Below are positions 6,561 through 51,757 of a DNA stretch of 64,000 nucleotides, piece by piece. The notes under the pieces were generated by a model. It was not told the origin of the DNA. It worked only from the letters and a program-made list of their open reading frames with translations, and searched no databases. The DNA is from an uncultured Bacteroidia bacterium (GTDB lineage Bacteria > Bacteroidota > Bacteroidia > Bacteroidales > UBA932): the NCBI GenBank assembly GCA_902784435.1, contig CACZUR010000004.1, positions 35,425 through 99,424 of the forward strand, in the 5' to 3' direction. Positions within the stretch are counted from its first letter, which is position 1; each line of letters begins with the position of its first letter. The translations under genes were made by a program, and so were the position numbers.

Positions 6561-6570
6561 CGATTCGGGG
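6547..6570. terminator. Hairpin around the GH3 stop codon
   Basis: CCCCGAAT and ATTCGGGG form a perfect 8-bp stem with an 8-nt loop holding the GH3 stop codon. There is no T-run, so it is more likely a 3'-end stabiliser or processing hairpin than an intrinsic terminator. It overlaps the left arm of the palindromic element that follows. Confidence 0.4.
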
Positions 6571-6628
6571 CAGACTCCCCTGCGGCCGCTAATAGAAAGG
6601 CCGATGCTCCCTTAGGGGCGTCTGCCCT
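6567..6628. repeat. Dispersed palindromic element, intergenic copy (E1)
   Basis: Nested inverted repeat between GH3 and the epimerase gene. The outer arms are GGGCAGAC (6568-6575) and GTCTGCCC (6620-6627); after one mismatched position CCCCT (6577-6581) pairs with AGGGG (6614-6618). The 42-bp core contains GGCCGATGCTCCCTTAGGGG and is about 37/42 identical by hand alignment to the core inside nrnA (25207-25248). The outer arms are unrelated between the two loci, yet each is self-complementary. Confidence 0.75.
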
Positions 6629-6645
6629 GAAAACAAGAGTTGACG

Positions 6646-7827
6646 ATGGAAACAAGGACAGACTTATTCTTAAAAGAAGTCCGGGAGTGCCTGACGCAGA
6701 ATATCCTGCCGTACTGGCTGCGCCTGAAGGACCCTCGCGGCGGTTTTTACGGAGAGGTTTCCTCGGACAGCACCGTCAAGTACGATGCTCCGCGGGGCGT
6801 CATCCTGAACGCCCGGCTCATCTGGGCTTTCTCTGCGGCTTATCAGGCACTGGGAAACACCGAATATCTGGTGGCCGCGGTCCATGCCCGGGACTGGTTC
6901 CTGGCGCATTTCTGCGACCACAAATATGGCGGCGTGTACTGGAGCGTGAGCGCGGAAGGGGAGCGCCTGGATACCAAGAAGCAGTTGTACGCCCAGGGTT
7001 TCGCCATTTACGGCCTGTCGGAGCTGTACAAGGCCACCCGTGACGACGAGGCGCTCAAGAACGCCGTGAACCTGTACAAGGTGGTGGAAACCTATTTTGC
7101 CGACACAGAGAACGGCGGTTACATCGAGGCCCTGGCCCGGGATTTCTCCCCGCTGGAGGATATGTCCCTGAGCGCCCACGACATCAACGCCGACAAAACC
7201 ATGAACTCCCACCTGCACCTGCTGGAGGCCTATGCCAACCTGTATCAGGTTTGGCCCGACGAAGGGCTGAAGGCCCGCGTGGAGGCCCTGCTGGACCTGG
7301 TGGGTACACGGGTCATGGCCCCGGACGGCCATCTGCAGCTATATTTCCGGAAGGACTGGAGCGTGCTGCCGGGCGGCCTCTCTTACGGTCACGACATCGA
7401 AACTTCCTGGCTGGCGCTGGAATGTGCCTTCGCGCTCAAGGACCTGGATGTAGTAACCCGTGTGCGCCCCTGGGCGCTGGCCATGGGAAAGGCCGGCAAC
7501 GAAGGCCTGCTCCCGGACGGATCCATGCGCTACGAACTGCTTCCCGACGGCCGCTACGACGATTCCCGCCAGTGGTGGGTGCAGGCCGAAGCCGTAGTGG
7601 GCAACCTGTGGCTGTGGAAATTCCACTCCGACGCCGCCGGGGCAGAACGCGCCCTGGCCCTGTGGTATTACATCCGGAAGCACCTCGTAGACAGCCGCGG
7701 CGGGGAGTGGTGGTGGGCCGTACTGCCGGATGGCTCGCTGGACTTCTCCCAGCCCAAGGCCGGCTTCTGGAAATGTCCCTATCACAATTCCCGCATGTGC
7801 CTCCAAGTATTAAAGATTTTTGAATAG
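6646..7827 (+). CDS. Cellobiose 2-epimerase-like (AGE family) enzyme
   Basis: Cytosolic (alpha/alpha)6-barrel epimerase of 393 aa, of the N-acylglucosamine/cellobiose 2-epimerase superfamily, which interconverts the reducing-end glucose and mannose of beta-1,4-disaccharides. Family motifs: PRGVILNARLIWAFS, QLYAQGFAIYGLSE, the His-rich HDINADKTMNSHLHLLE (~180) and GHDIETSWL (~248), and WWVQAEAVVG. There is no signal peptide. ATG 6646 is used; an in-frame TTG lies two codons upstream. It sits between extracytoplasmic hydrolases and a sugar symporter, which fits a route in which imported cellobiose or other beta-linked disaccharide is epimerised. No GH130 phosphorylase is in the window. AGE family is sure; cellobiose specificity is likely. 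Confidence 0.85.
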   Translation: METRTDLFLKEVRECLTQNILPYWLRLKDPRGGFYGEVSSDSTVKYDAPRGVILNARLIWAFSAAYQALGNTEYLVAAVHARDWFLAHFCDHKYGGVYWSVSAEGERLDTKKQLYAQGFAIYGLSELYKATRDDEALKNAVNLYKVVETYFADTENGGYIEALARDFSPLEDMSLSAHDINADKTMNSHLHLLEAYANLYQVWPDEGLKARVEALLDLVGTRVMAPDGHLQLYFRKDWSVLPGGLSYGHDIETSWLALECAFALKDLDVVTRVRPWALAMGKAGNEGLLPDGSMRYELLPDGRYDDSRQWWVQAEAVVGNLWLWKFHSDAAGAERALALWYYIRKHLVDSRGGEWWWAVLPDGSLDFSQPKAGFWKCPYHNSRMCLQVLKIFE

Positions 7828-7831
7828 TCAT

Positions 7832-9175
7832 ATGGCCAAATTATCAGAGAAAATAGGCTATGGCCTGGGTGACGCCGCTGCCGGCGGCATTACCTGGAAA
7901 GTGATGTCCATTGCTTTTCCCTTCTTCTTTACCAATGTCTTCGGCCTTACCGTGGCCGATGCCGCCGCCCTCATGCTGGTGGCCCGTCTGTTCGACGTGG
8001 TCACGGACCCCATGATGGGCGCTATCGCAGACCGCACCCGTTCGCGCTGGGGAACCTACAGGCCCTGGCTCATCTTCGGAGCCATTCCGCTGGGTCTGGT
8101 GTTTGCCCTGCTCCTGTATACCCCGGACCTGGGGCCTGCCGGCAAGCGTGTCTATGCCTATGCCCTGTATCTGCTCATGATGGTGGTATACACCGCCGTG
8201 AACGTGCCCTACGGCTCGCTGCTGGGCGTAATGACGGACGATGACGACGAGAAAAACCAGTTCTCGTCGTACCGGATGGTAGGAGCCTATGCCATGGGCT
8301 TCGTTACCCTGTTTGCCTTCCCTTACCTGCAGAAGATGGTGGGTGGCACCCCGCAGCACCAGTACGCCGTGCTGGGTGCCGTGCTGGGCGCCGTGGCGGC
8401 CCTGGGCACCCTGGCCTGCGGCCTGCTCACCAAGGAACGGCTCAAACCCGTCCGTGCAGAGAAGTTCTCCTTCAAGCCTTTCGCCGACCTGTTCCGTAAC
8501 AAGCCGTGGATCTACCTCACGCTCATCGGCATCTGCACCAATTTCTTCAACGGCTTCCGCTATGCCGTGGCGGCCTACCTCATGGAGTATTGCCTGCACG
8601 GGGATGTCACTGTCTGGGGGCTGGTTATCAACTACACGGTGTTCATGATGTTCGGTGAGGCTACCTGCATGGTCTTCGGCGGCCTGTCCCCCTGGTTCAC
8701 CAAGAAGGTGGGCTCCAAGAACAAGGCTTTCGCCTGGTCGGCCATCATCTGCGCCGTGTCGTCCATCCTGTTCTTCTTCATCCCCATGGATCCGGCCTGG
8801 ATCTGGGTGATGGTGGCCAATGTCATTGTCACGTCCATCGGCATCGGCTTCTATTCTCCGCTGCTGTGGTCCATGTATGCCGACGTAGCAGACTATGCCA
8901 CCCAGAAGAACGGCACCTCCTCCACCGGCCTCATCTTCTCGTCCGGAACCATGGCGCAGAAGTTCGGATCGGCCATTTCCGGTGCCCTCGTGGCCATGTT
9001 CCTGGGCCTGTCCGGCTTCATTTCCAGCACAGACCCCATCACGCAGGACACCGTCATCACCATCACCAACCAGGGGGCTGTCCAAACCATGATCTGGGCG
9101 CTGTTCTCCCTGTTCCCGGCCGCCATCGCCCTCCTCATCCTGCTGCTGCTGCGCCTGTATCCCATCAAGAAGTAG
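7832..9175 (+). CDS. GPH-family sugar:cation symporter
   Basis: MelB/XynB-type glycoside-pentoside-hexuronide:cation symporter of 447 aa with about 12 membrane segments. Diagnostic features are the N-terminal KIGYGLGDAAAGG, the first-half motif FDVVTDPMMGAIADRTRSRWG and RPWLIFGAIP, and SMYADVADYATQKNGTSSTG in the second half. It should import the oligosaccharides produced by the upstream hydrolases across the inner membrane with Na+ or H+. The ATG at 7832 is 4 nt after the epimerase stop codon, so the two are probably co-transcribed and translationally coupled. It is the last gene of the glycan cluster. Confidence 0.9.
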   Translation: MAKLSEKIGYGLGDAAAGGITWKVMSIAFPFFFTNVFGLTVADAAALMLVARLFDVVTDPMMGAIADRTRSRWGTYRPWLIFGAIPLGLVFALLLYTPDLGPAGKRVYAYALYLLMMVVYTAVNVPYGSLLGVMTDDDDEKNQFSSYRMVGAYAMGFVTLFAFPYLQKMVGGTPQHQYAVLGAVLGAVAALGTLACGLLTKERLKPVRAEKFSFKPFADLFRNKPWIYLTLIGICTNFFNGFRYAVAAYLMEYCLHGDVTVWGLVINYTVFMMFGEATCMVFGGLSPWFTKKVGSKNKAFAWSAIICAVSSILFFFIPMDPAWIWVMVANVIVTSIGIGFYSPLLWSMYADVADYATQKNGTSSTGLIFSSGTMAQKFGSAISGALVAMFLGLSGFISSTDPITQDTVITITNQGAVQTMIWALFSLFPAAIALLILLLLRLYPIKK

Positions 9176-9203
9176 GCATCCGCTTTCTGCTTCGCGCATG
9201 ATG

Positions 9204-9296
9204 CGCAAGTGATTGATAGTTAGCATCTTATGGATTTTTATCGGTCCAATTTGCGCCGATAAAAATCCATAAAACGTTAATACTGAGGCACTTGCG
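9204..9296. repeat. Nested inverted repeat with perfect 17-bp stem
   Basis: A 93-bp palindromic region in the gap after the symporter. The inner arms (9228-9244 and 9256-9272, TTATGGATTTTTATCGG and its exact complement) are 17 bp, perfect, with an 11-nt loop. The outer arms CGCAAGTG (9204-9211) and CACTTGCG (9289-9296) also pair. It could end symporter transcription, but there is no clean T-run; it could equally be a MITE-like remnant or a protein-binding site. Confidence 0.7.
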
Positions 9297-9321
9297 AACC
9301 AGCGTATTTCGGGCGTTTCGT

Positions 9322-9329
9322 TATCTTTG
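9322..9329 (+). promoter_or_regulatory. -7 promoter element 3 nt before a start codon
   Basis: TATCTTTG, a perfect TAnnTTTG, ends 3 nt before the ATG at 9333. If transcription starts the usual ~7 nt downstream, the mRNA would begin at or just after the start codon, i.e. leaderless or from a later start. Confidence 0.55.
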
Positions 9330-9332
9330 GGC

Positions 9333-9914: not shown

Positions 9915-9929
9915 CGCCCCGCCCCTTAA

Positions 9930-10004
9930 AATCCTTTAAAACATATCACAATCCTTTGAAACATAAAAAAAATCCTGTGAAACAACACATCTTTTCAAAG
10001 GATT
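9930..10004. repeat. Array of AATCCTTTGAAAC motifs upstream of the transposase
   Basis: Three direct copies of AATCCTTTgAAAC (9930-9942, 9950-9962, 9971-9983) spaced 20 and 21 bp, then an inverted copy (9992-10004, TTTTCAAAGGATT). Spacing of two helical turns on one DNA face is typical of a cooperative operator; terminal repeats recognised by the adjacent transposase are the other option. Confidence 0.6.
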
Positions 10005-10028
10005 CTTTTTCGGGAAGGGGAGAGTGCG

Positions 10029-10036
10029 TATCTTTC
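10029..10036 (+). promoter_or_regulatory. Possible -7 element for the transposase gene
   Basis: TATCTTTC differs from TAnnTTTG only in the last base and lies 16 nt before the ATG. The motif array 9930-10004 sits just upstream, where a regulator would act. Confidence 0.4.
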
Positions 10037-10052
10037 CCCAAAAAGCGAAGAC

Positions 10053-10982
10053 ATGAAAAAGCGAAAAGATTACGCGGGAGGGGTCCATCACGTCTTTCAG
10101 AGAACCATCGGCCGGGGCCTTATTTTCTATTCCATGAAAGACATTTTGGTGTTCTTTACCATTTATTGCGCCTATGCCGACAAGCGGAATGTGAGAATCC
10201 TGGCGCTCTGTCCCATGCCGGACCATATCCATCTGGTGCTCTCTGTCACCGGGGCAAAGCAGCTGGCCGATTTCATGCACACGGCTACGCGCCTCTTTGC
10301 CCGGGAATGGAATATCGGTCATCGGCGGAAAGGACCGTTATTCCAGCATCCCTATGGCAGCTCGGCCAAGCTGGGCAGCAAAGCGGTGCGCACCTCGCTG
10401 GCCTATTGCAACAACAATCCCGTGGAACGGAAGCTCACGGAAAAGGCCGAAGATTACCGGTGGAACTTCCTGGCCTATTACCGGAACACGCATCCTTTTT
10501 CCGAGCCGCTTGCGCTTACGCAGGCTTCGGGCCGCCTTCGCAGTGCCATCAAGATTGTGGAGGCCTGCCGCGATGCCGGAGGCTATTTGCGCTATCAGGC
10601 GCTGGACCGCTGGGAGAAAAGTCTGTCGGACAGGGAATGGCAGCAGCTGGCCGACCATATCATAGGAGAGTGGAATGTGATGGACTATGAGCAGGCCATT
10701 GCCTATTATGGCAGCTACGAGTCCCTGCTCCGGGCCTTCCGGGACAACACGGGCAGCGAATACGAAATCCCGGAAGAGCGGGACCCCTATTCCGACGCGG
10801 TCTATGCCGCGTGCTCCAGGGTGCTGCTCGCCGAAGGGCTGGTGCAGGACCTGCGGGAGGTGCCGATGATGGACCATGAGCGGAAAGACGCCTGCTGCAG
10901 GCTTTTGGTGCGGCGGACATCGGCCCGGATGAAGCAAGTGCGCAAATACCTGCACCTCCCGCTGGATATGGAGGGTTGGTAA
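10053..10982 (+). CDS. RAYT-like Y1 (HUH) transposase
   Basis: A 309-aa protein of the Y1 transposase/REP-associated tyrosine transposase group. The HUH metal site is seen in LCPMPDHIHLVL (~residue 57), preceded by the typical beta start YAGGVHHVFQRTIGRG and followed by RLFAREWNIGHRRKGPLFQHPYGS and the helix SLAYCNNNPVERKL, which places a conserved Tyr near the expected catalytic position. The C-terminal ~150 residues are a helical extension (DNAA_C/RAYT-tail-like). No flanking IS200/IS605-type ends are obvious, so it behaves like a single-copy domesticated RAYT, the class that processes palindromic REP sequences. This genome carries several palindromic repeat families, but the link is inference. 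Confidence 0.8.
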   Translation: MKKRKDYAGGVHHVFQRTIGRGLIFYSMKDILVFFTIYCAYADKRNVRILALCPMPDHIHLVLSVTGAKQLADFMHTATRLFAREWNIGHRRKGPLFQHPYGSSAKLGSKAVRTSLAYCNNNPVERKLTEKAEDYRWNFLAYYRNTHPFSEPLALTQASGRLRSAIKIVEACRDAGGYLRYQALDRWEKSLSDREWQQLADHIIGEWNVMDYEQAIAYYGSYESLLRAFRDNTGSEYEIPEERDPYSDAVYAACSRVLLAEGLVQDLREVPMMDHERKDACCRLLVRRTSARMKQVRKYLHLPLDMEGW

Positions 10983-10988
10983 CTGCGC

Positions 10989-11022
10989 AAAAAAGCCGCA
11001 GGCTCCGAAGAGGCTGCGGCTT
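10989..11022 (-). terminator. Intrinsic terminator of rpmH
   Basis: On the minus strand, AAGCCGCAG and CTGCGGCTT form a 9-bp stem followed directly by a run of six T. It lies 20 nt after the rpmH stop codon. On the plus strand there is no T-run, so it is not a terminator for the transposase gene. Confidence 0.75.
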
Positions 11023-11042
11023 ATAGCTACAGAAGGAAAAAA

Positions 11043-11195: not shown

Positions 11196-11231
11196 ATTAT
11201 CTCTATTTTATATTTTTTCGCGTAAGGGCTG

Positions 11232-11239
11232 CAAAGATA
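11232..11239 (-). promoter_or_regulatory. -7 promoter element of rpmH
   Basis: CAAAGATA on the plus strand reads TATCTTTG on the minus strand, a perfect TAnnTTTG, 37 nt before the rpmH start, in the gap between rsmG and rpmH. Confidence 0.7.
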
Positions 11240-11263
11240 ATCATTCTTCCCGAAACCGCCAAA

Positions 11264-12489: not shown

Positions 12490-12490
12490 A

Positions 12491-15226
12491 TCAATGCGCT
12501 TCCAGCCAGTTTTTTCCCGCGGCGCATTCCACCGTAAGCGGAACGGACAGGCGGATGACATTTTCCATCACTTCTTTCACCAGTTGCTGCAGCCGGGGTA
12601 CCTCCGTGGGAATGGCGTCGAACACCAGTTCGTCGTGGATCTGCAGCACCATTTTGCTTTGCAAGCCCTCTGCAGAGAGCCTTTCCGCCACGCGGATCAT
12701 GGCCAGTTTGATGATATCGGCCGATGTCCCCTGGATGGGGGCGTTCACGGCGTTGCGTTCCGCCAGGGCGCGGACGGTGGCATTGCGGGCCTGGATGTCC
12801 GGCAGATAGCGCCGGCGTCCGAAGAGGGTTTCCACATAACCGTTGGCCCGGGCAAAGGCGATGCTGCTGTCGATGAACGAGCGGATGGCCGGGAAAGAGG
12901 CGAAGTAGCCGTCGATGAGCTCTTTGGCCGCAGTGCGCGACAGATGCAGCCGCTGCGCCAGGCCGAAGGAGGAGATGCCGTACATGATGCCGAAGTTGGC
13001 GGTCTTGGCCATGCCGCGCTGCTCCCGCGTTACTTCCGAAACCGGTATGCCGAAGATCTTGGCGGCGGTGGCGGCGTGTACGTCCACTCCGTCGCGGAAA
13101 GCCTGTACCAGATGGGCGTCCTGGCTCAGGTGGGCCATGATGCGCAGTTCGATCTGGGAGTAGTCCGCGCTCACGATGAGGCCCTGGGGCGTGGCCGGAA
13201 CAAAGGCCTTTCGGATTTCCTTGCCGCGCTCCGTGCGGATGGGGATGTTCTGCAGGTTGGGGTTGGAGCTGGAAAGCCTTCCGGTTGCTGTAAGCGCCTG
13301 ATTGAACGTTGTATGGATGCGCCCGTCCAGCGGAGAGATGTAAGTGGGGAAAGGCTCTATGTAGGTGGACAGGAGTTTTTTCACGGCACGGAATTCCAGG
13401 ATTTCCTCTACGATGGGATGCCGGTCCGCGATGGCCAGGAGGGTGGCTTCATCCGTGGAATACTGGCCCTTGGAGGCGCTCTTTTTGGCCTTCGGGTCCA
13501 GTTTCAGTTTGTCGAAGAGCAGTTCGCCCACCTGTTTGGGCGAGGAAATGTTCAGCTGCGGAGCGTCGGCGAGCGAGCGGATGCGCTCCTCCCGCTGCAC
13601 CAGTTCCCGGCGCAGGCCATCGGCAAACTCCTTGAGCTGCGCCATATCCACTTTCACGCCGTCGCATTCCATCCTGGCCAGCACTTTGGCCAGCGGTTCT
13701 TCCATTTGGTCATAGAAGGAAGGCAGGTTTTCCCTCAGTTTGTCTCCCAGGGGAATCATCACCTGTGCTTCCAGCAGATGGGGGGCATCCTCCTCCTCGG
13801 GAACATCGTCGAAAAGCGATCCGGTACTGGCCGGGGCCGACGGCTCCAGAGAAACCCCCAGGTAGGTCTGTGAGAGGGCCGACAAGTCGTGGCTGCGCTC
13901 GGGATTCAGTACGTAGTGCATGAGCTGGACATCATTCCATTGTCCAGCGAGGCCGATGCCTTCCGCCGCCAGCGTCCGGGCCGTTTTCTTTAGGTCCGAG
14001 CCGTATTTGGCCACGGATGCGTCTTCCAGCAGCGCTTTGGCTTCGGAAAAGGAGGCCGATGCCACCAGACCGCCCGCGGAAAGGCTGATCCGGTGCCCCC
14101 ACAGGGCCAGGCCTGCTTTCCCCGATGCTTTCGCGGCGCTCAACACATCGGCCACCGGGGATGCTGTCCCCGCAGGAACAAAAGAGAGGGCCGATGCCCC
14201 TGCGGGCACCGCCTCCCCCTTGCCAAAAGCGGGTCCGGGCACGGAAACGGGGGTTTTGGTGCCCGCGAGGCCATTTTGGGCGGGTCCGGGCACGGAAACG
14301 GGGGTTTTGGTGCCCGCGAGGCCATTTTGGGCGGGTCCGGGCACAGAAACGGGGGTTATTGTGCCCGCGAGGTATTTTTTCAGGGAGGTGAACTCGTATT
14401 CCTGAAAGAGTTCTGCCAGGCGGGGGGTGAAGGCTCCGCTGTAGCGCATCTGCTCCAGGGTGACGGGGAGGGACATGTCTGTCTTGATGGTGACCAGGGC
14501 CTTGGACAGGGCCATGTGCGGCTGCGCCTCCCGGAACAGTTCCTGCTGCCTGGCTGTCAGCTGGTCCAGATGGGCGTAAATGTTTTCCAGGGAGCCGTAC
14601 CGGGCAATGAGTTTGGCGGCGCCGACCTCTCCAACGCCCTTGACACCGGGTACGTTGTCGGCCGTATCGCCGCAGATGGCCAGCATGTCAATGACCTGCG
14701 AGGGACTCTGGATGCCCCATTTCTCACAGAGCTCCTTCACCCCCAGAATCTCGTTGTCCGCGCCCGACTTGCCGGGTTTGTACTGGAAGGCGTGCGGGCC
14801 CACCAGCTGGCCGTAGTCCTTGTCCGGCGTGACCATATACACGTCCAGGGTTTCGGAGGCGTTCTGCACGGTAATGGAACCCAGTACGTCATCGGCCTCG
14901 AAGCCCGGAACCATCACCACCGGGATGCCCATGGCCTCTACCAGTCCGGTGAGGGGCTCCAGGGCGTCGATGATCAGCTGCGGGGTGGGCGGGCGCGTGC
15001 CCTTGTATTCCGGGTACATCTGGTTGCGGAAAGTACCGCCCGGCGGGTCGAAGGCCACGGCCAGGTGGGTGGGTTTTTCCCGTTGGATGAGCTCCAGAAG
15101 GTATTTTGTGAATCCGAAGAGGATGGACATGTCCGCCCCCTTGGAGTTGATCATCGGCCTGCGCAGGAACGCGTAGTACATCTTGAATACCAGCGCATGC
15201 CCGTCGATAAGAAACAGTTTGTCCAT
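12491..15226 (-). CDS. polA: DNA polymerase I with repeat-filled linker
   Basis: 911-aa family A polymerase. Residues ~1-280 are the 5'-3' exonuclease (LFLIDGHALVFKMYYA, AICGDTADNVPGVKGVG). Residues ~281-358 are a low-complexity linker built from a 17-residue tandem repeat and a palindromic DNA insert. The 3'-5' exonuclease-like domain follows but lacks the DxE motif at the expected position (GLALWGHRIS instead) and the second motif is also changed, so proofreading is probably lost. The polymerase motifs are intact: A (SADYSQIELRI), B (RGMAKTANFGIMYG), C (QIHDELVFD). The enzyme does primer removal and repair synthesis. It is followed directly by the sigma factor gene. Confidence 0.95.
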   Translation of the reverse strand: MDKLFLIDGHALVFKMYYAFLRRPMINSKGADMSILFGFTKYLLELIQREKPTHLAVAFDPPGGTFRNQMYPEYKGTRPPTPQLIIDALEPLTGLVEAMGIPVVMVPGFEADDVLGSITVQNASETLDVYMVTPDKDYGQLVGPHAFQYKPGKSGADNEILGVKELCEKWGIQSPSQVIDMLAICGDTADNVPGVKGVGEVGAAKLIARYGSLENIYAHLDQLTARQQELFREAQPHMALSKALVTIKTDMSLPVTLEQMRYSGAFTPRLAELFQEYEFTSLKKYLAGTITPVSVPGPAQNGLAGTKTPVSVPGPAQNGLAGTKTPVSVPGPAFGKGEAVPAGASALSFVPAGTASPVADVLSAAKASGKAGLALWGHRISLSAGGLVASASFSEAKALLEDASVAKYGSDLKKTARTLAAEGIGLAGQWNDVQLMHYVLNPERSHDLSALSQTYLGVSLEPSAPASTGSLFDDVPEEEDAPHLLEAQVMIPLGDKLRENLPSFYDQMEEPLAKVLARMECDGVKVDMAQLKEFADGLRRELVQREERIRSLADAPQLNISSPKQVGELLFDKLKLDPKAKKSASKGQYSTDEATLLAIADRHPIVEEILEFRAVKKLLSTYIEPFPTYISPLDGRIHTTFNQALTATGRLSSSNPNLQNIPIRTERGKEIRKAFVPATPQGLIVSADYSQIELRIMAHLSQDAHLVQAFRDGVDVHAATAAKIFGIPVSEVTREQRGMAKTANFGIMYGISSFGLAQRLHLSRTAAKELIDGYFASFPAIRSFIDSSIAFARANGYVETLFGRRRYLPDIQARNATVRALAERNAVNAPIQGTSADIIKLAMIRVAERLSAEGLQSKMVLQIHDELVFDAIPTEVPRLQQLVKEVMENVIRLSVPLTVECAAGKNWLEAH
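14152..14222. repeat. Palindromic element inserted in polA (E2)
   Basis: Within the polA linker. CCCGCAGG (14169-14176) pairs exactly with CCTGCGGG (14199-14206), and weaker outer arms lie at 14152-14163 and 14211-14222 (9 of 12 pairing by eye). The core AAAGAGAGGGCCGATGC differs by one base from AAAGAGAAGGCCGATGC in nrnA. It is read in frame as GASALSFVPAGTASP on the coding strand, close to the nrnA peptide GASAFSLATAGASP. Confidence 0.7.
14231..14383. repeat. 51-bp tandem repeat in polA (3 units)
   Basis: Units start at 14231, 14282 and 14333, period 51 bp = 17 codons. The first two are nearly identical and the third is diverged. Each unit folds: GGGCAC pairs with GTGCCC, and AAAC with GTTT. 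The encoded peptide unit is AQNGLAGTKTPVSVPGP. A homologous tandem repeat with the same period occurs in tilS. Confidence 0.9.
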
Positions 15227-15248
15227 TTTGTCCCTGCCCTTCAGCCGC

Positions 15249-15614
15249 CTATTCTCCGCTCAGTTTCTTCACAATCTCGTCGTCGCCGGTGAATACATGG
15301 CCGAAGACGCCTACGGATACCATGTCGGTTTCTCCGCCGTGGGTGAGGCGGCCCACGCTGTATACGTAGTGGTTCTCTACCTGAAGCTCACTGTCCAGAT
15401 ACCATTCAGAGAGGTTGGACCCCAGCTGGGAAATGCCGCCCAGGATGCCCAGGACGTCGTTGCTCTTGTCTTCGTTGAGGCCGAGCTCTTTGCCGATGTT
15501 CTTTTCGATGGCAGCCTTGAGGGCATCTTTGTGGGCCTGCTCGTCGGGGCAGGTGAAGTAGGCGATGCCTCCGACAATGAGGAGGAACAGTGCGAGTTTG
15601 AAAAGACCTTTCAT
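15249..15614 (-). CDS. Small membrane-anchored protein, DUF4359-like
   Basis: 121-aa protein with one N-terminal hydrophobic segment (LFKLALFLLIVGGIAYF) that acts as an anchor or signal peptide. The rest is soluble and ends with a beta-rich part (VENHYVYSVGRLTHGGE, VSVGVFGHVFTGD) that looks like the DUF4359 family of small Bacteroidota proteins; the assignment is from memory and moderate. No function is known. It is 22 nt upstream of polA on the same strand and has its own promoter, so it may be the first gene of the polA-sigma-rsmG unit. Confidence 0.75.
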   Translation of the reverse strand: MKGLFKLALFLLIVGGIAYFTCPDEQAHKDALKAAIEKNIGKELGLNEDKSNDVLGILGGISQLGSNLSEWYLDSELQVENHYVYSVGRLTHGGETDMVSVGVFGHVFTGDDEIVKKLSGE

Positions 15615-24103: not shown

Positions 24104-24647
24104 TGAAAATCTTTTCTATCAAAATGTAATAGACCAGGGCCGACAGTGCAGGAATCGTGCCTTTCTCGCTGTTTCCGAAGCCGTATTTCCCGGTGAACAG
24201 GATGTAGGCTTCGTCCCCGGGCTGCACCCCTGCGAGCCCGTCCTGCAGGCCCTGCACCAGGTTCTTGTCCAGGGAGAGGGTGTCCAGCTTGAAGCGGGTG
24301 TTGTCCGAGAGGGTCCACCGGGCCTGCGCGGTCACTTCCTGGATGTTGGTGGCCACCAGGTTAGAAGTGGAAATGCTGGCGCTGGTCAGGGTGAAACAGG
24401 CATAATGGAGCGACACCCGTCCGCCCTCTTTCAGGGAATCCCGTGCCGGGGGCAGGGTGTCGTGCAGGGTAATGCGGTAGGCCCCGCCGTTCCGGGCAAG
24501 CGTGGCTTTGGGGTCTTCCTTCATCCTGGCCGCCACGAAGTTCTCGATAAAAGTGGTCTGTTTGTCGTAGGTGGTCTGGAGGGACTGCTTGCTGCAAGAC
24601 AGCAGGCCACCCGCCAGGACAAGCAGTATGAGACTCAGTTTTTTCAT
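24096..24647 (-). CDS. FKBP-like lipoprotein
   Basis: 183-aa lipoprotein with signal peptide MKKLSLILLVLAGGLLSC. The C-terminal half resembles an FKBP domain (GGRVSLHYACFTL, LVQGLQDGLAGVQPGDEAYILF, GKYGFGNSEKGTIPALSALVYYI), but several active-site aromatic residues differ from the canonical set, so isomerase activity is uncertain. It is paired with a larger FKBP lipoprotein downstream and overlaps nrnA upstream (ATGA-type, 4 nt). The tandem suggests a two-subunit envelope chaperone, which is inference. Confidence 0.85.
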   Translation of the reverse strand: MKKLSLILLVLAGGLLSCSKQSLQTTYDKQTTFIENFVAARMKEDPKATLARNGGAYRITLHDTLPPARDSLKEGGRVSLHYACFTLTSASISTSNLVATNIQEVTAQARWTLSDNTRFKLDTLSLDKNLVQGLQDGLAGVQPGDEAYILFTGKYGFGNSEKGTIPALSALVYYILIEKIFNE

Positions 24648-25741
24648 GCCAGGAATGCTTTGACGGCCTTCTCTATATAGGCGGGGGCGTCATCGGCACA
24701 GGGAATGTCCTCGCCGATGAAAAGCTTGCCGCCGGCGGCATTTTCGTGCCCGCCGCCGTGGAAATACTGCATGGCCAGCTGCTGGGCGCTGGTGCCTTTT
24801 TTGGAGCGGATGGAAACCCGGAAATGCCCCTTGTCCTCTTTCAGGAAAAGGCTCAGCCGGACTTTTCCGATGGTCAGGGGAACGTTGACCAGCCCCTCCG
24901 TCTCTCCTTCGTGCATGTCGTAGCGCTGCTGGATTTCCCGGGTAAGCACCATGTAGGCGGCGCCTTCCGGCAGCAGGACCATCCGTTCGCTTTGCATGTA
25001 GCCCATGAGCCTGACGCGGTTTTCCCGGTAGCAGTTGTAGATTTGCTGCAGGATGGCGTCGCGGTCCACCCCGGCGGCCATGAGCTCCGAGGCCATCCGG
25101 AAGGTGCTGGGAAACACGGAATTGGCAAAATTGTTGGTGTCCGTGGTCATGCCGGTCAGGAGGGCGCTCCCGATGTCATTGGGCAGTGCCTGACCGGAGG
25201 GGGATGCCCCTGCGGTCGCTAAAGAGAAGGCCGATGCTCCCTTAGGGGCTTCCCCCTCCGGTCCCTGTCCCAGTGCTTTCAGAATCCAGTAGAGGACCTC
25301 TGAAGCGGAGGAAATGTGCGGCGTGGAGAACGACAGGCCGAAGCTGTCCCGGTCCGGGTTCAGGTGGTGGTCTATGAGCACTTTCCGGGCCGGGGAGGCC
25401 TTGAGGGGCTCTTCCAGGCTTTCCGTCCGGTGGAAGGCGTTGCAGTCCAGCAGGAACACCAGGTCGGCTTCCCGGATGCGCCGTTCCGTAGCGGCGGCGT
25501 CGCGGTTATGGAAACAGTAGGGGATTTCCTCCGGGAGGATGAACAGCAGGTTTTCGGGCGGATTGTCCGAAAAGGCGCAGGCCACGTCTTTTCCGGCCAG
25601 GTTTTTCAGATACAGACACAGGGCGGCCGTGGCGCCCAGGGCATCCCCGTCCGGGTGCGTGTGCCCCACGACCACGGGATGCTTGCATTCCCGGATCCAC
25701 TGCTGCAGGAGCCTGATGTCTTCGTTTCTGATAAAATCCAT
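24644..25741 (-). CDS. nrnA: DHH/DHHA1 phosphoesterase (NrnA-like) with palindromic insert
   Basis: 365-aa cytosolic DHH-family phosphoesterase, resembling NrnA, which degrades nanoRNA and dephosphorylates pAp. DHH motifs: VVVGHTHPDGDALGA (~27), VFLLDCNAF, LIDHHLNPDRD (~127), LTGMTTDTNNF; the DHHA1 domain ends in FHGGGHENAAGGK. Between the DHH core motifs YWILKALG and IGSALLTG is a ~25-residue insert (residues ~160-183) encoded by a palindromic DNA element; relatives lack this segment as far as I recall. It is the first gene of the six-gene minus-strand operon, with its own promoter. Confidence 0.9.
   Translation of the reverse strand: MDFIRNEDIRLLQQWIRECKHPVVVGHTHPDGDALGATAALCLYLKNLAGKDVACAFSDNPPENLLFILPEEIPYCFHNRDAAATERRIREADLVFLLDCNAFHRTESLEEPLKASPARKVLIDHHLNPDRDSFGLSFSTPHISSASEVLYWILKALGQGPEGEAPKGASAFSLATAGASPSGQALPNDIGSALLTGMTTDTNNFANSVFPSTFRMASELMAAGVDRDAILQQIYNCYRENRVRLMGYMQSERMVLLPEGAAYMVLTREIQQRYDMHEGETEGLVNVPLTIGKVRLSLFLKEDKGHFRVSIRSKKGTSAQQLAMQYFHGGGHENAAGGKLFIGEDIPCADDAPAYIEKAVKAFLA
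25192..25263. repeat. Palindromic element inserted in nrnA (E3)
   Basis: Outer arms of 13 bp are perfect (25192-25204 GACCGGAGGGGGA; 25251-25263 its complement). After one mismatched pair, GCCCCT and AGGGGC continue the stem. The core from CCCCTGCGG to CTTAGGGG is about 37/42 identical to the intergenic copy at 6577-6618. The whole stem-loop is read in frame by nrnA. Confidence 0.85.
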
Positions 25742-25760
25742 TGCGCTTGAATTGCGATGG

Positions 25761-25768
25761 CAAATTTA
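25761..25768 (-). promoter_or_regulatory. -7 promoter element of the nrnA operon
   Basis: CAAATTTA reads TAAATTTG on the minus strand, 19 nt before the nrnA start codon. It is divergent from the promoter of the gene at 25843. Confidence 0.65.
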
Positions 25769-30869: not shown

Positions 30870-30900
30870 GGGTGCGCGCACCTGGCGTGCGTGCACCCTG

Positions 30901-31150
30901 TAACGCACTTTCGGGCGTTTTCCGCGTTACACGTTGCATGGACATGCGACCTGTAACGCACTTTCGGGCGTTTTTCGCGTAATACGTTGCATGGAGGTGC
31001 ACCCTGTAACGCACTTTTGGGCGTTTTTCGTGTAATACGTTGCATGGGGGTGCACCCTATAACGCACTTTTGGGCGTTTTTCGCGTTACACGTTGCATGG
31101 GCATGCGAACTGTAACGCACTTTTGGGCGTTTTTCGTGTAATACGTTGCA
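30901..31150. repeat. 53-bp tandem repeat cluster, five units
   Basis: Units start at 30901, 30954, 31007, 31060 and 31113 (period exactly 53; the last unit is truncated). Each has a ~38-bp conserved part from TAACGCACTTT to ACGTTGCA and a 14-15 nt variable part that alternates between GCATGC-like and GTGCAC-like palindromes. GTAACGC and GCGTTAC pair within units 1 and 4. The cluster fills the 314-bp gap between the HerA-like gene and sstT; I see no gene in it. Three inverted copies lie at 34562-34720. Confidence 0.9.
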
Positions 31151-31183
31151 GGGGGGGGCGAAAGGGCAAAGGGGCGGGGCGCG

Positions 31184-34540: not shown

Positions 34541-34561
34541 CGGCGCGGTCTTTTTCCCCCC

Positions 34562-34720
34562 TGCAACGTATTACGCGAAAAACGCCCGAAAGTGCGTTAT
34601 AGGGTGCACGCCCCTGCAACGTATTACGCGGAAAACGCCCAAAAGTGCGTTACAGGTCGCATGCCCATGCAACGTATTACGCGGAAAACGCCCAAAAGTG
34701 CGTTACAGGGTGCAGGCCCG
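34562..34720. repeat. 53-bp repeat cluster, three inverted units
   Basis: Units start at 34562, 34615 and 34668 (period 53) and are the reverse complement of the 30901-31150 cluster: TGCAACGTATTACGCG at the start, AAAGTGCGTTA before the variable part. Variable parts again contain GTGCAC- or GCATGC-type palindromes. The cluster occupies most of the 260-bp gap between mazG and prfA. Confidence 0.9.
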
Positions 34721-41401: not shown

Positions 41402-41717
41402 GATGGAAACGGGTGCAAACAGATGGTCCTGGCTCAAGCGCAGCGAGCACAATTACCTGCTGCCCTTCGTCATCGTGGTCACCGTGCTGGTGGCCCTGTG
41501 GCTGCTTTTCTTCGCGCACAACAGTGTGCTCAACTGGATCAAAGCCTCGGTAGAGGAACAGAACCAGAAGAAGGAAATGGCACGGTTGCAGGAAGAAATA
41601 GACCGGATGGACCAGGAAATTGCCGCGCTCAAAGGCAACCGGGATTCCCTGGAAACCTTTGCCCGGGAAACCTATCACTTTGCCGCCCCCGGAGACGATG
41701 TATATATCGTAGAATAA
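41391..41717 (+). CDS. FtsB/DivIC-like septum formation initiator protein
   Basis: 108-aa bitopic protein: short basic cytosolic N-terminus, one membrane segment (LLPFVIVVTVLVALWLLFF), then a periplasmic coiled coil (EEQNQKKEMARLQEEIDRMDQEIAALKG) and a short conserved end (RDSLETFARETYHFAAPGDDVYIV). This is the layout of FtsB/DivIC, which bridges FtsL and FtsQ in the divisome. The start may be 41391 (overlapping the CPBP gene by 11 nt) or ATG 41403. The last 43 bp overlap the convergent folP gene. Confidence 0.9.
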   Translation: MQSKMETGANRWSWLKRSEHNYLLPFVIVVTVLVALWLLFFAHNSVLNWIKASVEEQNQKKEMARLQEEIDRMDQEIAALKGNRDSLETFARETYHFAAPGDDVYIVE

Positions 41718-42511
41718 AGCCGGGCGGTGTGCACGGCGGCCGCCACATCGTGGACGCGCAGCCAGGTGGCACCTTTCTCCAGTGCGGCAAACTGCACCAC
41801 TTGCGTAGCGGGCATCGCCTCTTCCGGGGTGATGCCCAGTTTTTTGTATATCATACTTTTGCGGGAAACGCCTGCGAGCACCTCCTGCGGGAAGGCCGAT
41901 ACAATGCGGTCCAGTCCGCGCAGCACTGCGTAATTCTGGTCCAGGTCCTTGCCGAAGCCGAAGCCCGGGTCCAGGATCCAGTCCCGGAGGCCGGCTTCCG
42001 CTGCCTTGAAGGAAAAGGCTCGGAACCAGGCGATGATTTCTTCTACGGTGGCACAGGAAGGGCACATGGCCACATAGGGCAGTCCCAGGCGGCCCACCGT
42101 GGAGAGCATCTCCGGGTCCCATTCTCCACCGCCCACATCGTTCACCATAAAAGGGCCGATGAGATCATAGGCCCGGCTCACAATCCCGGCCCGGTATGTG
42201 TCGATGGACAGCATGGGGATGGAAGAAGTATTTCCGGGGGCATCGGCCTTCTTTTTAGCCCCCGGAAATACTTCTTCCACCCCAGATGATAAACGATGCA
42301 GCACGGGCTCCAGGCGGCTCCATTCCTCTTCCAGGGACGGCTGCGGAGCGCCCGGACGCGTAGAGCAGGCGCCCAGGTCCACGACATCGGCCCCCTCGGA
42401 AAACTGCATCCGTATGCGGTCCAGGGCATGATCGGCCCCTGCGCGGCTTCCGGCATAGAAGGAATCCGGCGTCAGGTTCACGATGCCCATGATATGGATG
42501 CGGCCCACCAT
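41675..42511 (-). CDS. folP: Dihydropteroate synthase with palindromic insert
   Basis: 278-aa folate enzyme joining pABA to dihydropterin pyrophosphate; target of sulfonamides. Motifs: IMGIVNLTPDSFYAGSR, VVDLGACSTRPGA (pterin and PPi site), LSIDTYRA, NDVGGG, ILDPGFGFGKDLDQN and GVSRKSMI. Between the VLHRL helix and LSIDTYRA there is an insert of about 22-26 residues (GVEEVFPGAKKKADAPGNTS) encoded by a nearly perfect palindrome. It ends 43 bp inside the convergent ftsB-like gene and starts immediately after the DoxX gene. Confidence 0.94.
   Translation of the reverse strand: MVGRIHIMGIVNLTPDSFYAGSRAGADHALDRIRMQFSEGADVVDLGACSTRPGAPQPSLEEEWSRLEPVLHRLSSGVEEVFPGAKKKADAPGNTSSIPMLSIDTYRAGIVSRAYDLIGPFMVNDVGGGEWDPEMLSTVGRLGLPYVAMCPSCATVEEIIAWFRAFSFKAAEAGLRDWILDPGFGFGKDLDQNYAVLRGLDRIVSAFPQEVLAGVSRKSMIYKKLGITPEEAMPATQVVQFAALEKGATWLRVHDVAAAVHTARLYSTIYTSSPGAAK
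42216..42283. repeat. Palindromic element inserted in folP (E4)
   Basis: Arms of 21 bp are perfect (42221-42241 and 42258-42278), extending to 26 bp with one mismatch (42216-42283). The 16-nt loop, read on the minus strand, is TAAAAAGAAGGCCGAT, matching the core TAAAGAGAAGGCCGAT of the nrnA copy but in the opposite orientation relative to the gene. The whole element is translated in frame. Confidence 0.9.
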
Positions 42512-44244: not shown

Positions 44245-44249
44245 AACAA

Positions 44250-46043: not shown

Positions 46044-46056
46044 AGTTTAAGTTTCC

Positions 46057-48816: not shown

Positions 48817-48847
48817 ATATAACCCCCTATACTTTCTAAATTAAACG

Positions 48848-50119
48848 CTATTCTTCTTCAAATTCTTCCTTCAGGATGCGAAGGACATCCTCTACGGTCT
48901 CGTCCTCCAGGTCTGCGCGGGTGGCAATTTCCTGGGGATCCAGGGCCATGACGCTGCGGGCGGTGTCGCAGCCGATGGACTGCAGCCGTTCGATCACCCA
49001 AGGGTCGATCACGTCCGTGAACTCGCTCAGGAGCACATCGTCCTCCTCTTCCTCGTTCTGCGGAATCTCTCTCCAGACTTCGATCTCACGGCCGACCAGC
49101 ATGCCGGCGAGTTTGATGTTCACGCCGCCCTTGCCGATACCCTTTTTCACTTCGTCGGCCTGCATATAGACCTTGATCTTCTCTTCGGGGCTGCTGCCCA
49201 GGTCGATGCGGGAGATGCGGGCGGGATTCAGCGCACGCTGGATCATGAGCTGCGGGTTGGTGGTCCACTGGATGACGTCGATGTTCTCGTTGCGCAGTTC
49301 ACGCACGATTCCCATGATGCGGGAACCCTTCACGCCGATGCAGGCGCCGATGGGGTCGATGCGGTCGTCGTAGGATTCTACGGCCACCTTGGCCCGCTCG
49401 CCGGGGATGCGCACTACCTTCTTCACGGTGATGAGTCCGTCGTAGATCTCCGGGACTTCCATCTCGAAGAGCTTCTCCAGGAAGCTGTCCGTAGTGCGGG
49501 ACAGGACGATGTAAGGCGTGGTGTTGTTCTTCATTTCCACGCTCTTGATGATGGCGCGCACGGAGTCGCTCTTCTTGAAGTGCTCTCCGGGGATTTGCTC
49601 GCTCTTGGGCATGCGCAGTTCGTTGCCTTCCTCGTCCAGGATCAGGACCTCGTTCTTCCAGGTCTGGTATACTTCGCCGGTGAAGATTTCGCCCACGCGC
49701 TCGGAGTATTTCTTGTACACGTTGGCTTTCTCGATGTCCATGATGCGGCCCTGCAGGTTCTGCCGGATGTTCAGGATGCCGCGGCGGCCAAAGGAAGAGA
49801 GGGAGAGCTTGCGGGTGAAGGTGTCTCCGATTTCGTAGTCGTCGTCACCGGTCTCGGCGGCAATCTCTTCCACGGTAATCTGGGTCACAGGGTCTTCCAC
49901 TTCCTCTACCACCTCGAAGTTCTGGTAGATTTCGCAGTCTCCCTTGTCCACGTTGATAATGACGTCGAAGTTGTCTGCGCTGCCGTAGGTCTTGGCCAGC
50001 TGGGTCAGGAACACATCCTTCAGCACGCCCAGCATAACCGGACGGTCGATGCTCTTTTCTTCCTTGAAATCCTTGAATGCGTCAATCAAGGTGATTTCTT
50101 TCTCTTTTTCTTTTGCCAT
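48848..50119 (-). CDS. nusA: Transcription termination/antitermination factor NusA
   Basis: 423-aa NusA: N-terminal RNA-polymerase-binding domain, S1 domain (ERVGEIFTGEVYQTW), KH1 and KH2 (DPIGACIGVKGSRIMGIVREL and GVNIKLAGMLVGREIEV). After KH2 come acidic and helix-hairpin-like residues (SIGCDTARSVMALDPQEIATRADL). It modulates pausing and termination. It is in the classic rimP-nusA-infB order, 15 nt after rimP. Confidence 0.96.
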   Translation of the reverse strand: MAKEKEKEITLIDAFKDFKEEKSIDRPVMLGVLKDVFLTQLAKTYGSADNFDVIINVDKGDCEIYQNFEVVEEVEDPVTQITVEEIAAETGDDDYEIGDTFTRKLSLSSFGRRGILNIRQNLQGRIMDIEKANVYKKYSERVGEIFTGEVYQTWKNEVLILDEEGNELRMPKSEQIPGEHFKKSDSVRAIIKSVEMKNNTTPYIVLSRTTDSFLEKLFEMEVPEIYDGLITVKKVVRIPGERAKVAVESYDDRIDPIGACIGVKGSRIMGIVRELRNENIDVIQWTTNPQLMIQRALNPARISRIDLGSSPEEKIKVYMQADEVKKGIGKGGVNIKLAGMLVGREIEVWREIPQNEEEEDDVLLSEFTDVIDPWVIERLQSIGCDTARSVMALDPQEIATRADLEDETVEDVLRILKEEFEEE

Positions 50120-50134
50120 TGGTCTATGTTTGTA

Positions 50135-50602
50135 TTATTTGAATTCTATGTAAGGTGTGACCGAGTTTACGTCGGCCAGGGCAAAGACATCTTCGTGCGA
50201 CACCTTTTCCTTTTTCTTCTTGCCTTCCACGGCCTCCAGCGCGGTGTACTGCAGGGTGATGCTGTCTTCCGTGGCGGCGGCCAGGGTGGCCAGGATGCGC
50301 TTCCCGCCCTTGAGCTTCACGTCTACCTGCGTGCCCACGGCCTTCAGGTACTGCCTGTACACCTTGAAGGGCCTGTCCAGGCCGGCCGATGAAACGGTGA
50401 GGGCATAGTCTTCCACGTCCTGGTCGAAGGCCTCGTGCATCACCTTGTCAATGGCACTGCAGTCTTCCCAATCCACCTCTCCGGCTTCCTTCTCGATGAT
50501 TATCTCAATGTCATTGTCCTTGGAAACCGTCACTTCCACCAGAAAGCAACCCCTTTCCGCAATGGCGGCATTCACAGCCCCGATGATCTGTTCTTTTGTC
50601 AT
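50135..50602 (-). CDS. rimP: Ribosome maturation factor RimP
   Basis: 155-aa RimP, needed for 30S maturation. The N-terminal domain has FLVEVTVSKDNDIEIIIEKEAGEVDWEDCSAIDK and the family motif YALTVSSAGLDRPFKVYRQY, followed by a C-terminal Sm-like barrel. It is the first gene of the run rimP-nusA-infB-cotH-tmk-doxX-folP and has its own TAnnTTTG promoter. Confidence 0.94.
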   Translation of the reverse strand: MTKEQIIGAVNAAIAERGCFLVEVTVSKDNDIEIIIEKEAGEVDWEDCSAIDKVMHEAFDQDVEDYALTVSSAGLDRPFKVYRQYLKAVGTQVDVKLKGGKRILATLAAATEDSITLQYTALEAVEGKKKKEKVSHEDVFALADVNSVTPYIEFK

Positions 50603-50656
50603 AGCCTTTATAAAAAAAAGATAGGGGACCGTCGTCCTCTATCTCGTTCACGGGTG

Positions 50657-50664
50657 CAAATATA
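50657..50664 (-). promoter_or_regulatory. -7 promoter element of the rimP-nusA-infB operon
   Basis: CAAATATA reads TATATTTG on the minus strand, 54 nt before the rimP start codon. Confidence 0.65.
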
Positions 50665-50836
50665 CGAAGAATATTTGAAATAGCCAAAAATTCCGGGCCG
50701 ATAATCCGGAAATGCCTTTTTATCTTCTTTTGCCTCTTATGGTATTATCTTTCATACCGTTGCCTTTCATACATTGCCTTTCATGCATGACCGGGCTGCC
50801 CTTAGAACCTTGGAACGGGTCTTCACCGATTATTTT

Positions 50837-50996
50837 GGCGCAGGTCGGGGCGCGGATGGCGCAGGTTTAATTCTGATGCCGATGCCTGCGCCATGAATCT
50901 CCATCCTGTGCGTTCTGGTGGCGCAGGCATAAGCCATAAAATCCAGCCTGCGCCATATACGTTGCGACCTGCGCCATCTAGGCTCTGACCTGCGCC
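50837..50996. repeat. Cluster of GGCGCAGG / CCTGCGCC octamers
   Basis: Seven copies of one octamer in 160 bp: GGCGCAGG at 50837, 50858 and 50920, and CCTGCGCC at 50885, 50947, 50968 and 50989. Some neighbours are spaced 21 bp. It occupies the 447-bp gene-free gap 50603-51049 between rimP and the wbqC-like gene. Upstream of it is a short run of CTTTCATnC repeats (50750-50785). I see no coding potential in this gap. Confidence 0.75.
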
Positions 50997-51049
50997 AAGG
51001 TGCTTCGCTTGGGGGGCGTTTGGACCAGAACCTCGGAGCACAGTCACCA

Positions 51050-51757
51050 TCAGGTGTAGTTCAGAAGCCAGCCGATGCTGTCGGGCCCTTCGTTGAACAG
51101 CAGGTCCAGGGCGCTGAGGCGGGGAGTGAAGCCGCCCAGGCGGTCGCGGAACACCTGGTAGTAGGGCTTGTCCAGTCCCAGCTCCTGCAGGACGGTGTCC
51201 TGGTGTTTGGGATGGAGGGTATAGCGGAAATCATCGGCCAGGGTGCCTGGCGCGGCAAAAGCCGGGGTGGGAACCAGGCTGCAGGCAATCCCGCACTGGT
51301 CCAGGAGAAAGCGAATGGTGGAGAGGTCCAGTTCCCAGAGGGTCTCCGGATGGGCGTCCAGCAGGGCGAACACTCCGTCGCGGTAGTATTCATAGTAGGC
51401 TGCGGTTTCGTAGGCCGTGTCCAGCGCCCGTTGGGTGCGCACGACCCACGGGGTGGAGTAGTCTACGCGTATGGCGGAAATCCTCCTTCCGGAAGCATTG
51501 GCCCGCACAGAGTCGCAAAGCAATGCTCCCGGAAGGAGGATTTCTGCTGGGGCCCCGTGCACCACCGGTACCTGCAACATCTGCGGACCGTCTCCCGCCA
51601 GGATGTAGCAGCGGTTGCGGTAGCTTTGTTTCTGGTAGTTCTCACAGGCCTCCAGCTGCACCCTGGACGGCAAAACCCTGTCCGGAGACAGGGTCATGTC
51701 GCGTGCGGCCAGGGCCAGCCAGGCCACGGGCGGGAAATATGCCGTGGACAGGAGCAC
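51050..51757 (-). CDS. WbqC-family protein with palindromic insert
   Basis: 235-aa protein of the WbqC-like family (LSTAYFPPVAWLALAA at the start, RNRCYILAGDGPQMLQVPVV, RVDYSTPWVVRTQRALDTAY, FNEGPDSIGWLL). Family members sit near polysaccharide or LPS genes, and here it follows lpxA; the biochemical role is unsettled. It starts with GTG at 51757 inside TAGTG, sharing bases with the lpxA stop codon. Residues ~71-94 (ILLPGALLCDSVRANASGRR) are encoded by a palindromic DNA element just before the conserved DYSTPW motif. Confidence 0.85.
   Translation of the reverse strand: MLLSTAYFPPVAWLALAARDMTLSPDRVLPSRVQLEACENYQKQSYRNRCYILAGDGPQMLQVPVVHGAPAEILLPGALLCDSVRANASGRRISAIRVDYSTPWVVRTQRALDTAYETAAYYEYYRDGVFALLDAHPETLWELDLSTIRFLLDQCGIACSLVPTPAFAAPGTLADDFRYTLHPKHQDTVLQELGLDKPYYQVFRDRLGGFTPRLSALDLLFNEGPDSIGWLLNYT
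51474..51547. repeat. Palindromic element inserted in wbqC-like gene (E5)
   Basis: Arms at 51474-51500 and 51521-51547 pair over 27 positions with two non-Watson-Crick positions, loop of 20 nt. The outer part is GAAATCCTCCTTCCGG and its complement; the inner part is AGCATTG/CAATGCT. The loop-proximal sequence GCATTGGCC is one base from the GCATCGGCC core of the other elements. It is read in frame. Confidence 0.85.

Follow-up and report, generated by a model that had tools for sequence, protein, structure and literature searches.

How can the two arms of a palindrome stay complementary at the sites where it stands, with arms that differ from site to site and a centre that hardly changes? This question is raised by a stretch of 64,000 nucleotides (the window, analysed over its full length) from an uncultured Bacteroidia bacterium of the Bacteroidales lineage UBA932 (GCA_902784435.1, contig CACZUR010000004.1, positions 35,425 to 99,424). 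An initial annotation of the window had described five palindromes with a common core and locus-specific complementary arms, four of them read through as in-frame inserts in protein genes. The explanation that we favour, and to which we give an even chance, is that these are protein-coding palindromic elements in which template switching during replication keeps the arms matched and the core is exchanged and flipped.

The hairpins of the window and their core families

Hairpins are present at all five loci according to an inverted-repeat search (42216-42283, 51474-51547 and 25192-25263), our own hairpin scan (6564-6631), the listing of scored F1 hairpins and folding as single-stranded DNA, which confirms the palindromes as first described. 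Compared with dinucleotide shuffles, the folds have z values of -4.6 (6564), -2.3 (14152-14222), -5.4 (25192), -9.0 (42216) and -6.0 (51474). The copy at 14157-14218 is the weakest hairpin of the five, with a score of 12.5 (stretch L012) that is under the threshold of our own scan.

Four of the five loci share a core, here called F1, with the rough consensus (R)A(W)(R)AGA(R)GGCCGATGC. The assignment of all five to one family therefore stands for these four and not for the fifth: the centre of 51474-51547 matches F1 only at chance level, agrees with a second core, F2, at 27 of 34 positions (the best of 2000 shuffles reached 20), and has its GGCCAATGC in the stem, outside the loop. It is a diverged F2 copy, since its own genome has no F2 match at up to 3 mismatches.

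The element at 6564-6631 (+ strand; core 6591-6607) is apparently intergenic, as had been claimed, with a candidate start ATG at 6646. The second (14157-14218, +; core 14181-14197) lies within polA (12494-15259, - strand), its core being opposite to the gene; three 51-bp tandem repeats, two of them identical, adjoin it at 14229-14381. The third (25192-25263, +; core 25221-25237) is in an nrnA-like gene (24647-25765, -) and is predicted to be translated as GPEGEAPKGASAFSLATAGASPSGQ. The fourth (42216-42283, -; core 42240-42256) is in folP (41678-42511, -), has the orientation of the gene and a predicted translation of GVEEVFPGAKKKADAPGNTSSIP; relatives hold other palindromes at this site. The F2-like element (51474-51547, -; core about 51492-51523, differing from F2 at 7 of 34 positions) is within a putative wbqC-like gene, so named in the initial annotation. 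The polA, nrnA-like and folP coordinates come from the list of open reading frames (ORFs), and the orthologues of these genes were compared; the three names follow the initial annotation and are presumed.

The 9-mer GGCCGATGC at up to 1 mismatch has 94 matches in the window, with 34 expected, and is weak evidence by itself; the 17-nt core is strong evidence. The genome of origin (G000; 2.23 Mb in 42 contigs, 82.6% complete) was searched with this 17-nt F1 core, the reversed core pattern serving as control. Allowing up to 3 mismatches gave 112 matches, with 17 for the control; allowing up to 2 gave 50, with 1 for the control. The claim of a multi-copy family with a common core and private complementary arms is upheld, and the genome-wide search that had been suggested as a check yielded many more copies, rather than few or none. 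Among stretches from six genomes, 56 of 72 exact core matches are located within a hairpin scoring at least 10, a score found in about 1% of 2000 random stretches; just 2 of 80 matches with 3 mismatches sit in such hairpins, and the 3-mismatch matches are therefore mostly chance. A scan for inverted repeats that made no use of the core found 62 hairpins, 28 with the F1 core and most others being other repeats, in 457,574 bases, which comprise the window and 20 stretches picked around core matches and so give no estimate of density.

The anatomy of F1 was read from 74 rows with a hairpin score of at least 10 in six genomes (at least two are spurious, both in L123, and L115 and L166 are near-duplicates; all are counted). 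The element is about 66-70 bp long and occurs in three subtypes with a common centre, similar length and a similar codon pattern in the arms. In the copies read, cores are near-identical between sites, with species variants, and the arms are private to each site and self-complementary; F1 copies were mostly found via the core, so that its conservation is partly by construction. Thirty-eight type-A copies from three genomes could be placed in one common register, where arm positions -13 to -24 are paired in 79-100% of copies and composition predicts 30-95% (for instance 100% against 44% at -13, 89% against 38% at -16 and 87% against 33% at -22), percentages that are raised by the selection of these copies by hairpin score. 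Pairing weakens past about -27. The steadiest arm feature is a G at -24 opposite a C, followed by G at -18 and -21, and the conservation of the remaining arm positions drops with distance from the core. The first arm reads as GNN codons and the second as NCN, in an identical pattern in both orientations. Apart from the common G-C pair at -24/+37, the element ends have no fixed sequence.

When up to 3 mismatches were allowed, F2 was found in 6 of the 61 genomes searched in the genus, and the control gave zero matches. In G019, 12 of 13 F2 core matches are identical across the 32-nt pattern, and among the seven hairpins read the 38-nt centre is identical in six and has a single change in one, with arms that share 57% of positions on average. 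The 26 F2 hairpins from seven genomes each have their own arms. Species variants of F2 exist: one is common to all three G061 copies and one to the four copies read in RUG533, where a fifth match has one change. A third and longer palindromic family, F3, has a centre of about 60-110 nt and occurs in folP, nrnA and murE of some relatives. The F3 copies in L058, L065, L074, L267 and L268 (folP) and in L211 (murE) have a long centre with smaller hairpins, and their sites are those of F1 and F2.

Distribution among genomes and residence in genes

Sixty further genomes, 36 from the genus and 24 from the order, were screened for F1 at up to 2 mismatches. F1 stands out in G019 (18 matches against 1 for the control) and G028 (21 against 2). 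Smaller excesses, which are core counts alone, were obtained in G003 (10/1), G056 (10/0), G005 (7/0) and G055 (7/0); no F1 element was seen in G003 and G005 at the orthologous sites read. An exact-core scan of genome_contigs, in which 84,980 species are represented by a single genome each, returned 44 stretches. Thirty-two of them belong to five Bacteroidales metagenome-assembled genomes (MAGs), namely Tb.RUG.143 (14), RGIG7856 (11), Tb.RUG.329 (5), Tb.RUG.533 (1) and RGIG9187 (1), the Tb. names being shortened to RUG143, RUG329 and RUG533 here. The 12 others are from other organisms, and no such hairpin was seen in the contexts inspected by eye. At up to 1 mismatch the five MAGs have, in the same order, 35, 20, 41, 13 and 10 matches against 0, 1, 0, 0 and 1 for the control. 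Two of the five are labelled as reticulum samples, and RUG in the MAG names is presumably a rumen label; the F1 hosts are a group of ruminant-gut bacteria.

According to the ORF assignment, 72 of the 74 F1 rows fall within a frame of at least 80 codons, the core having the orientation of the frame in 53 and the opposite one in 19. The assignment is mechanical and overcounts, as it includes the apparently intergenic 6564 copy and puts rsmF on the wrong strand. In-frame residence in both orientations, as originally claimed, is nevertheless what the predicted frames indicate. Most of the 28 F1 copies (29 rows minus one false positive in L031) use one reading frame per orientation; rsmF uses another and some are ambiguous, hence we claim no strict rule. 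Hosts identified by Pfam are rsmF, uvrA, uvrD, a kdtA-like gene, an rfbD-like gene, atpG, cysS, miaA and a frame that joins LptF/LptG and Fmt domains; the names folP, nrnA, polA, ileS, murE, spoU-like and others are assumed, in part from the initial annotation. Many of the hosts are housekeeping genes. The joined frame (L049:7636-10194, - strand), of 853 codons, carries a formyltransferase together with an LptF/LptG permease. Eight relatives have a frame of 814-870 codons in the corresponding position, which suggests that the fusion is common to them.

The comparison of orthologous sites covered 15 genes, with as many as ten relatives, and further genes besides. One and the same site may be empty in some species and hold F1, F2 or F3 in others. 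Empty sites were found in miaA (RUG533, RUG143, G061 and G003), in uvrD (seven of seven relatives read), in uvrA (RUG533, RUG329 and RGIG9187) and in folP (RUG533, RUG329 and G003). Orthologues of the genus are thus often empty at the site, which goes against ancestral protein loops, the refuting case named in the initial annotation. By eye, atpG of G005 (L141) seems to hold a deletion form of the F2 element of G061 (L147), the left arm and most of the core being lost and the right arm retained. Other short repeat-like sequences (TGTCATTC..GAGC, GATCA..GTCGG) were observed by eye at the same in-gene sites in L126 (miaA), L218 (MFS), L203 (murE) and L251 (rfbD). Since these occupy the same sites, the in-gene loops with varied repeat-like inserts may be general insertion hot spots.

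Upkeep of the arms and origin of the core

Two processes are asked for, the upkeep of arm complementarity at each site and the uniformity of the core across sites. For the arms, 86 hairpins at 30 sites were compared, 127 same-site pairs being scored against the quantiles of 3528 different-site pairs. Fifteen of the 127 are above the 99% quantile and six above the 99.9% quantile. The 15 homologous pairs provide 338 columns, in which 253 are unchanged, 44 compensated, 39 singly changed and 2 doubly changed without complementarity, whereas independent change of the arms at the same rate would give 12.7 doubles of whatever kind. The six strictest pairs have 122 unchanged, 16 compensated, 22 single and 1 double non-complementary columns.

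The relation of arms to core families was evaluated by shuffling site labels within genomes (79 hairpins with a family, 2000 permutations). Homologous same-site pairs were of the same family in 11 cases, with 1.02 expected, and of different families in 4, with 0.53 expected; neither number was reached in any permutation. The cross-family pairs with homologous arms come from fmt (three, F1/F2) and nrnA (one, F3/F1). The mobile core surmised in the initial annotation is thereby favoured, albeit indirectly and at two sites. Cores were also found inverted between homologous arms. In the spoU-like gene, the arms of RUG329 and RGIG9187 are homologous and enclose F1 cores that point in opposite directions; in folP, F3 stands one way in RUG143 and G061 and is reversed in RGIG7856 and G019, the arms being homologous and the pairs mostly above the 99.9% quantile.

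We propose that the hairpins, which lie in frame within genes, are probably selfish or neutral and that permissive protein loops tolerate them. During replication a template switch at the hairpin, in which the nascent strand would copy the opposite arm, could keep the arms complementary, and the same switch would flip the core; template switching fits the upkeep of the arms and predicts core inversions. An RNA function is unnecessary because both orientations occur. The uniformity of the core could result from a recent amplification of whole elements or from tip exchange within resident hairpins: the core would spread by replacing the tip of hairpins already in place, besides which whole hairpins would insert at empty sites. 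Arm covariation, core inversion and core identity favour exchange, same-site pairs without arm homology favour repeated insertion, and both may act. A more specific form of the proposal, which we put forward tentatively and would not bet on, is that what really moves is the tip of the hairpin: a core of 16-38 nt that homes into gene-resident hairpins, replaces the old tip, flips and is homogenised genome-wide, the arms staying with the locus and being kept matched by template switching.

Several observations weigh against template switching combined with core exchange. In the six strictest pairs single changes exceed compensated ones (22 against 16). The 15 homologous pairs represent a small number of sites, with 6 from folP, and are non-independent, and the choice of hairpins by score favours complementary columns. 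No arm homology is detectable in 112 of the 127 same-site pairs, a result that repeated independent insertions would explain better than exchange does. All four cross-family pairs, and the inversion pair of the spoU-like gene, exceed the 99% quantile yet stay below the 99.9% quantile. RUG143 and RGIG7856 have one element in common with nearly the same arms, so that a fast change of the arms is not required, and hairpin upkeep is incomplete in RUG143, where only 9 of 15 exact core matches are within hairpins. The uniformity of the core is broken by F1 variants at orthologous sites in RUG329 (TTATGCCGATGC) and RGIG9187 (AAGCGCCGATGC), by a G019 copy in ileS with a longer, altered centre of 77 nt that is missed by the F2 pattern, and by the F2 copies of G005 and G069, which vary among themselves. 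Lastly, no transposase was linked to the elements at the eight Y1 transposase loci read.

Plain mobile palindromic elements, similar to miniature inverted-repeat transposable elements (MITEs) or Rickettsia palindromic elements (RPEs), are the strongest competitor, one that we regard as possible, if rather unlikely. Whole copies would insert repeatedly in the same permissive loops and their arms would diverge later under loose coding constraint, the core looking conserved owing to recent amplification in each species and to core-based finding. Different families at the same sites across species, the many same-site pairs devoid of arm homology, four tight empty miaA alleles without either arm and the likeness of the three subtypes in element length and arm codon pattern are all in line with this. 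Drift should however strike the core too, yet the F2 centre of G019 remains identical in six of seven copies whose arms share 57% of positions, and arm drift as the sole cause is accordingly disfavoured. Neither homologous arms around another core family nor homologous arms around an inverted core are predicted by insertion of whole copies.

The initial annotation had suggested that target DNA might be duplicated in inverted form around a mobile core, so that one arm would be the old gene sequence and the other an inverted copy of it, produced during insertion. Persuasive by eye at murE and uvrD, this turned out not to be the rule in systematic DNA and protein tests, and we hold it to be quite improbable. 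If one arm is old gene sequence, likeness to the empty allele is expected. In the protein-level test against empty alleles (p <= 0.05) the left arm qualified in 6 of 50 elements, the right arm in 8 and both in none, with 2.5 per side by chance. Likeness of one arm to the empty allele is thus seen in 14 elements out of the 50, where chance would give about 5; it speaks for duplication and is present, for instance, in murE of RUG143 (left arm, p 0.019). In uvrD of G000 the likeness seen by eye (VEDGDT) is not significant (p 0.17). A one-sided positive control, in which stretches of empty alleles were compared with each other, scored 23 of 50, a rate that both sides together should surpass, and among the elements in excess of chance are four from folP, in three of which the stem extends into conserved flank. 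The DNA-level test (left 1 of 54, right 10 of 54) is inflated by two alleles that are not truly empty and by stems entering conserved flank. The net insertion, 0.80 of the hairpin length (median of 39 elements; interquartile range 0.68-1.04), lies between the 0.74 expected under target duplication and 1.0 and is not decisive. The common length and codon pattern of the arms also argue against duplication as the general mechanism; a minority of elements with target-derived arms is possible.

Selection on the hairpin itself, as a signal in DNA or RNA (such as a binding site in which the loop is conserved and the stem may have any sequence), would keep the arms paired and would account for the conserved loop and covarying stem that are the usual signature of a selected structure, and is the least probable alternative given the two orientations within genes (53 and 19 by the mechanical assignment), the unrelated host genes, the presence that differs between relatives and the 0 Rfam matches at gathering score in the window, by which a known RNA family was likewise dismissed.

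If hairpin-tip mobility is true, it represents a genetic element whose niche is DNA secondary structure and not sequence. The elements form a natural system of many copies, spread over several species and dozens of sites in each genome, in which a single site can be read as empty, occupied, flipped or swapped. This makes two questions testable, the spread of protein-coding palindromes and the origin of compensatory stem changes in template switching as opposed to selection on structure. A caution also follows, that stem covariation alone is no proof of a functional RNA.

Candidate mobilisers and known systems

The window holds a 333-codon frame (9981-10979, +) matching Y1 transposase (PF01797), and Y1-type genes are present in all nine genomes searched. 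A Y1 transposase was rejected as mobiliser: such genes also occur in G003, which has no F1-F3 element at the sites read, and in the 8 of 24 above-cut-off matches that were read, together with their 1.5 kb flanks, the gene has no F1-F3 core beside it, bar one degenerate F1-like match in L275. A different repeat family is represented upstream of the Y1 frame by a long quasi-palindrome at 9204-9296 (TGGATTTTTATCGG...), which has similar copies in L031 and L041 and might be the frame's own repeat. Viral carriage was discarded, with 0 exact matches for either core pattern in viral_contigs, and so was strand bias, as the core orientation agrees with the sign of the GC skew of the surrounding stretch in 15 of 28 F1 hairpins (hand count), that is, without any relation. 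Ribosome bypassing of the insert is unneeded since in-gene copies keep an open frame. Further repeats of the window are a large imperfect inverted repeat of TGGCGCAGG units at 50836-50976, also present in L031, and two arrays of 53-bp tandem repeats (30891-31159 and 34558-34719).

Repetitive extragenic palindromic elements (REPs) are linked with RAYT (Y1) transposases. In the part of the literature consulted, REPs are described as extragenic and tagged at one end (PMC3733652). The Bacteroidales elements resemble them as short many-copy palindromes in genomes with Y1-type genes, and differ in that most copies are, by the mechanical assignment, in reading frames. REP foot tags are not enriched in 35 G000 copies with 16 nt per foot (GTAG/CTAC 4 and CGTC/GACG 9; chance about 14 in all, an estimate made without shuffles).

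The likeness to RPEs in effect, pointed out in the initial annotation, is borne out. RPEs are portrayed, in the portions available to us, as several families of small palindromic elements found in frame in conserved protein genes, where the protein tolerates them, and elsewhere; they are said to measure 105-146 or about 150 bp, to have inverted repeats at their ends and to encode a conserved peptide (PMC2229807, PMC10969869). The elements described here are likewise a palindromic, hairpin-forming repeat family with predicted in-frame inserts in conserved protein genes. Unlike RPEs as there described, F1 measures about 66-70 bp and is below RPE size (F3 is longer), the peptide is not conserved, only the core part being shared and giving two peptides by orientation, the arms are private to each site around a core conserved at the DNA level in both readings, and the hosts are Bacteroidales. 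Because size, conserved peptide and private arms differ, the elements are not filed as RPEs. Protein-coding palindromes inserted in frame in housekeeping genes were also reported in Wolbachia and Methanocaldococcus jannaschii (PMC2996958); they are comparable as in-frame inserts, and the description accessible to us does not mention private arms around a fixed core. In Nematomorpha mitochondria, perfect inverted repeats occur in protein genes and were judged to be translated (PMC6649704). There, as far as the consulted part goes, both arms encode conserved protein and no shared core is named, whereas here the hairpin is an added loop. Among the titles and abstract openings listed from the open literature (for example the best 20 of 2101 matches), there was no account of such elements in Bacteroidales.

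The nearest parallel in mechanism is the evolution of hairpins by template switching, which according to the sections seen homogenises the arms of inverted repeats and inverts spacers in yeast coding DNA (PMC8604942) and can create and maintain hairpins (PMC8794818). The compensated arm changes (44 against 39 single, and 16 against 22 in the strictest pairs) and the spacer inversions at folP and the spoU-like gene are similar to it. Those reports, so far as consulted, deal with a mutation process; the Bacteroidales hairpins are a repeat family with a shared and exchangeable spacer.

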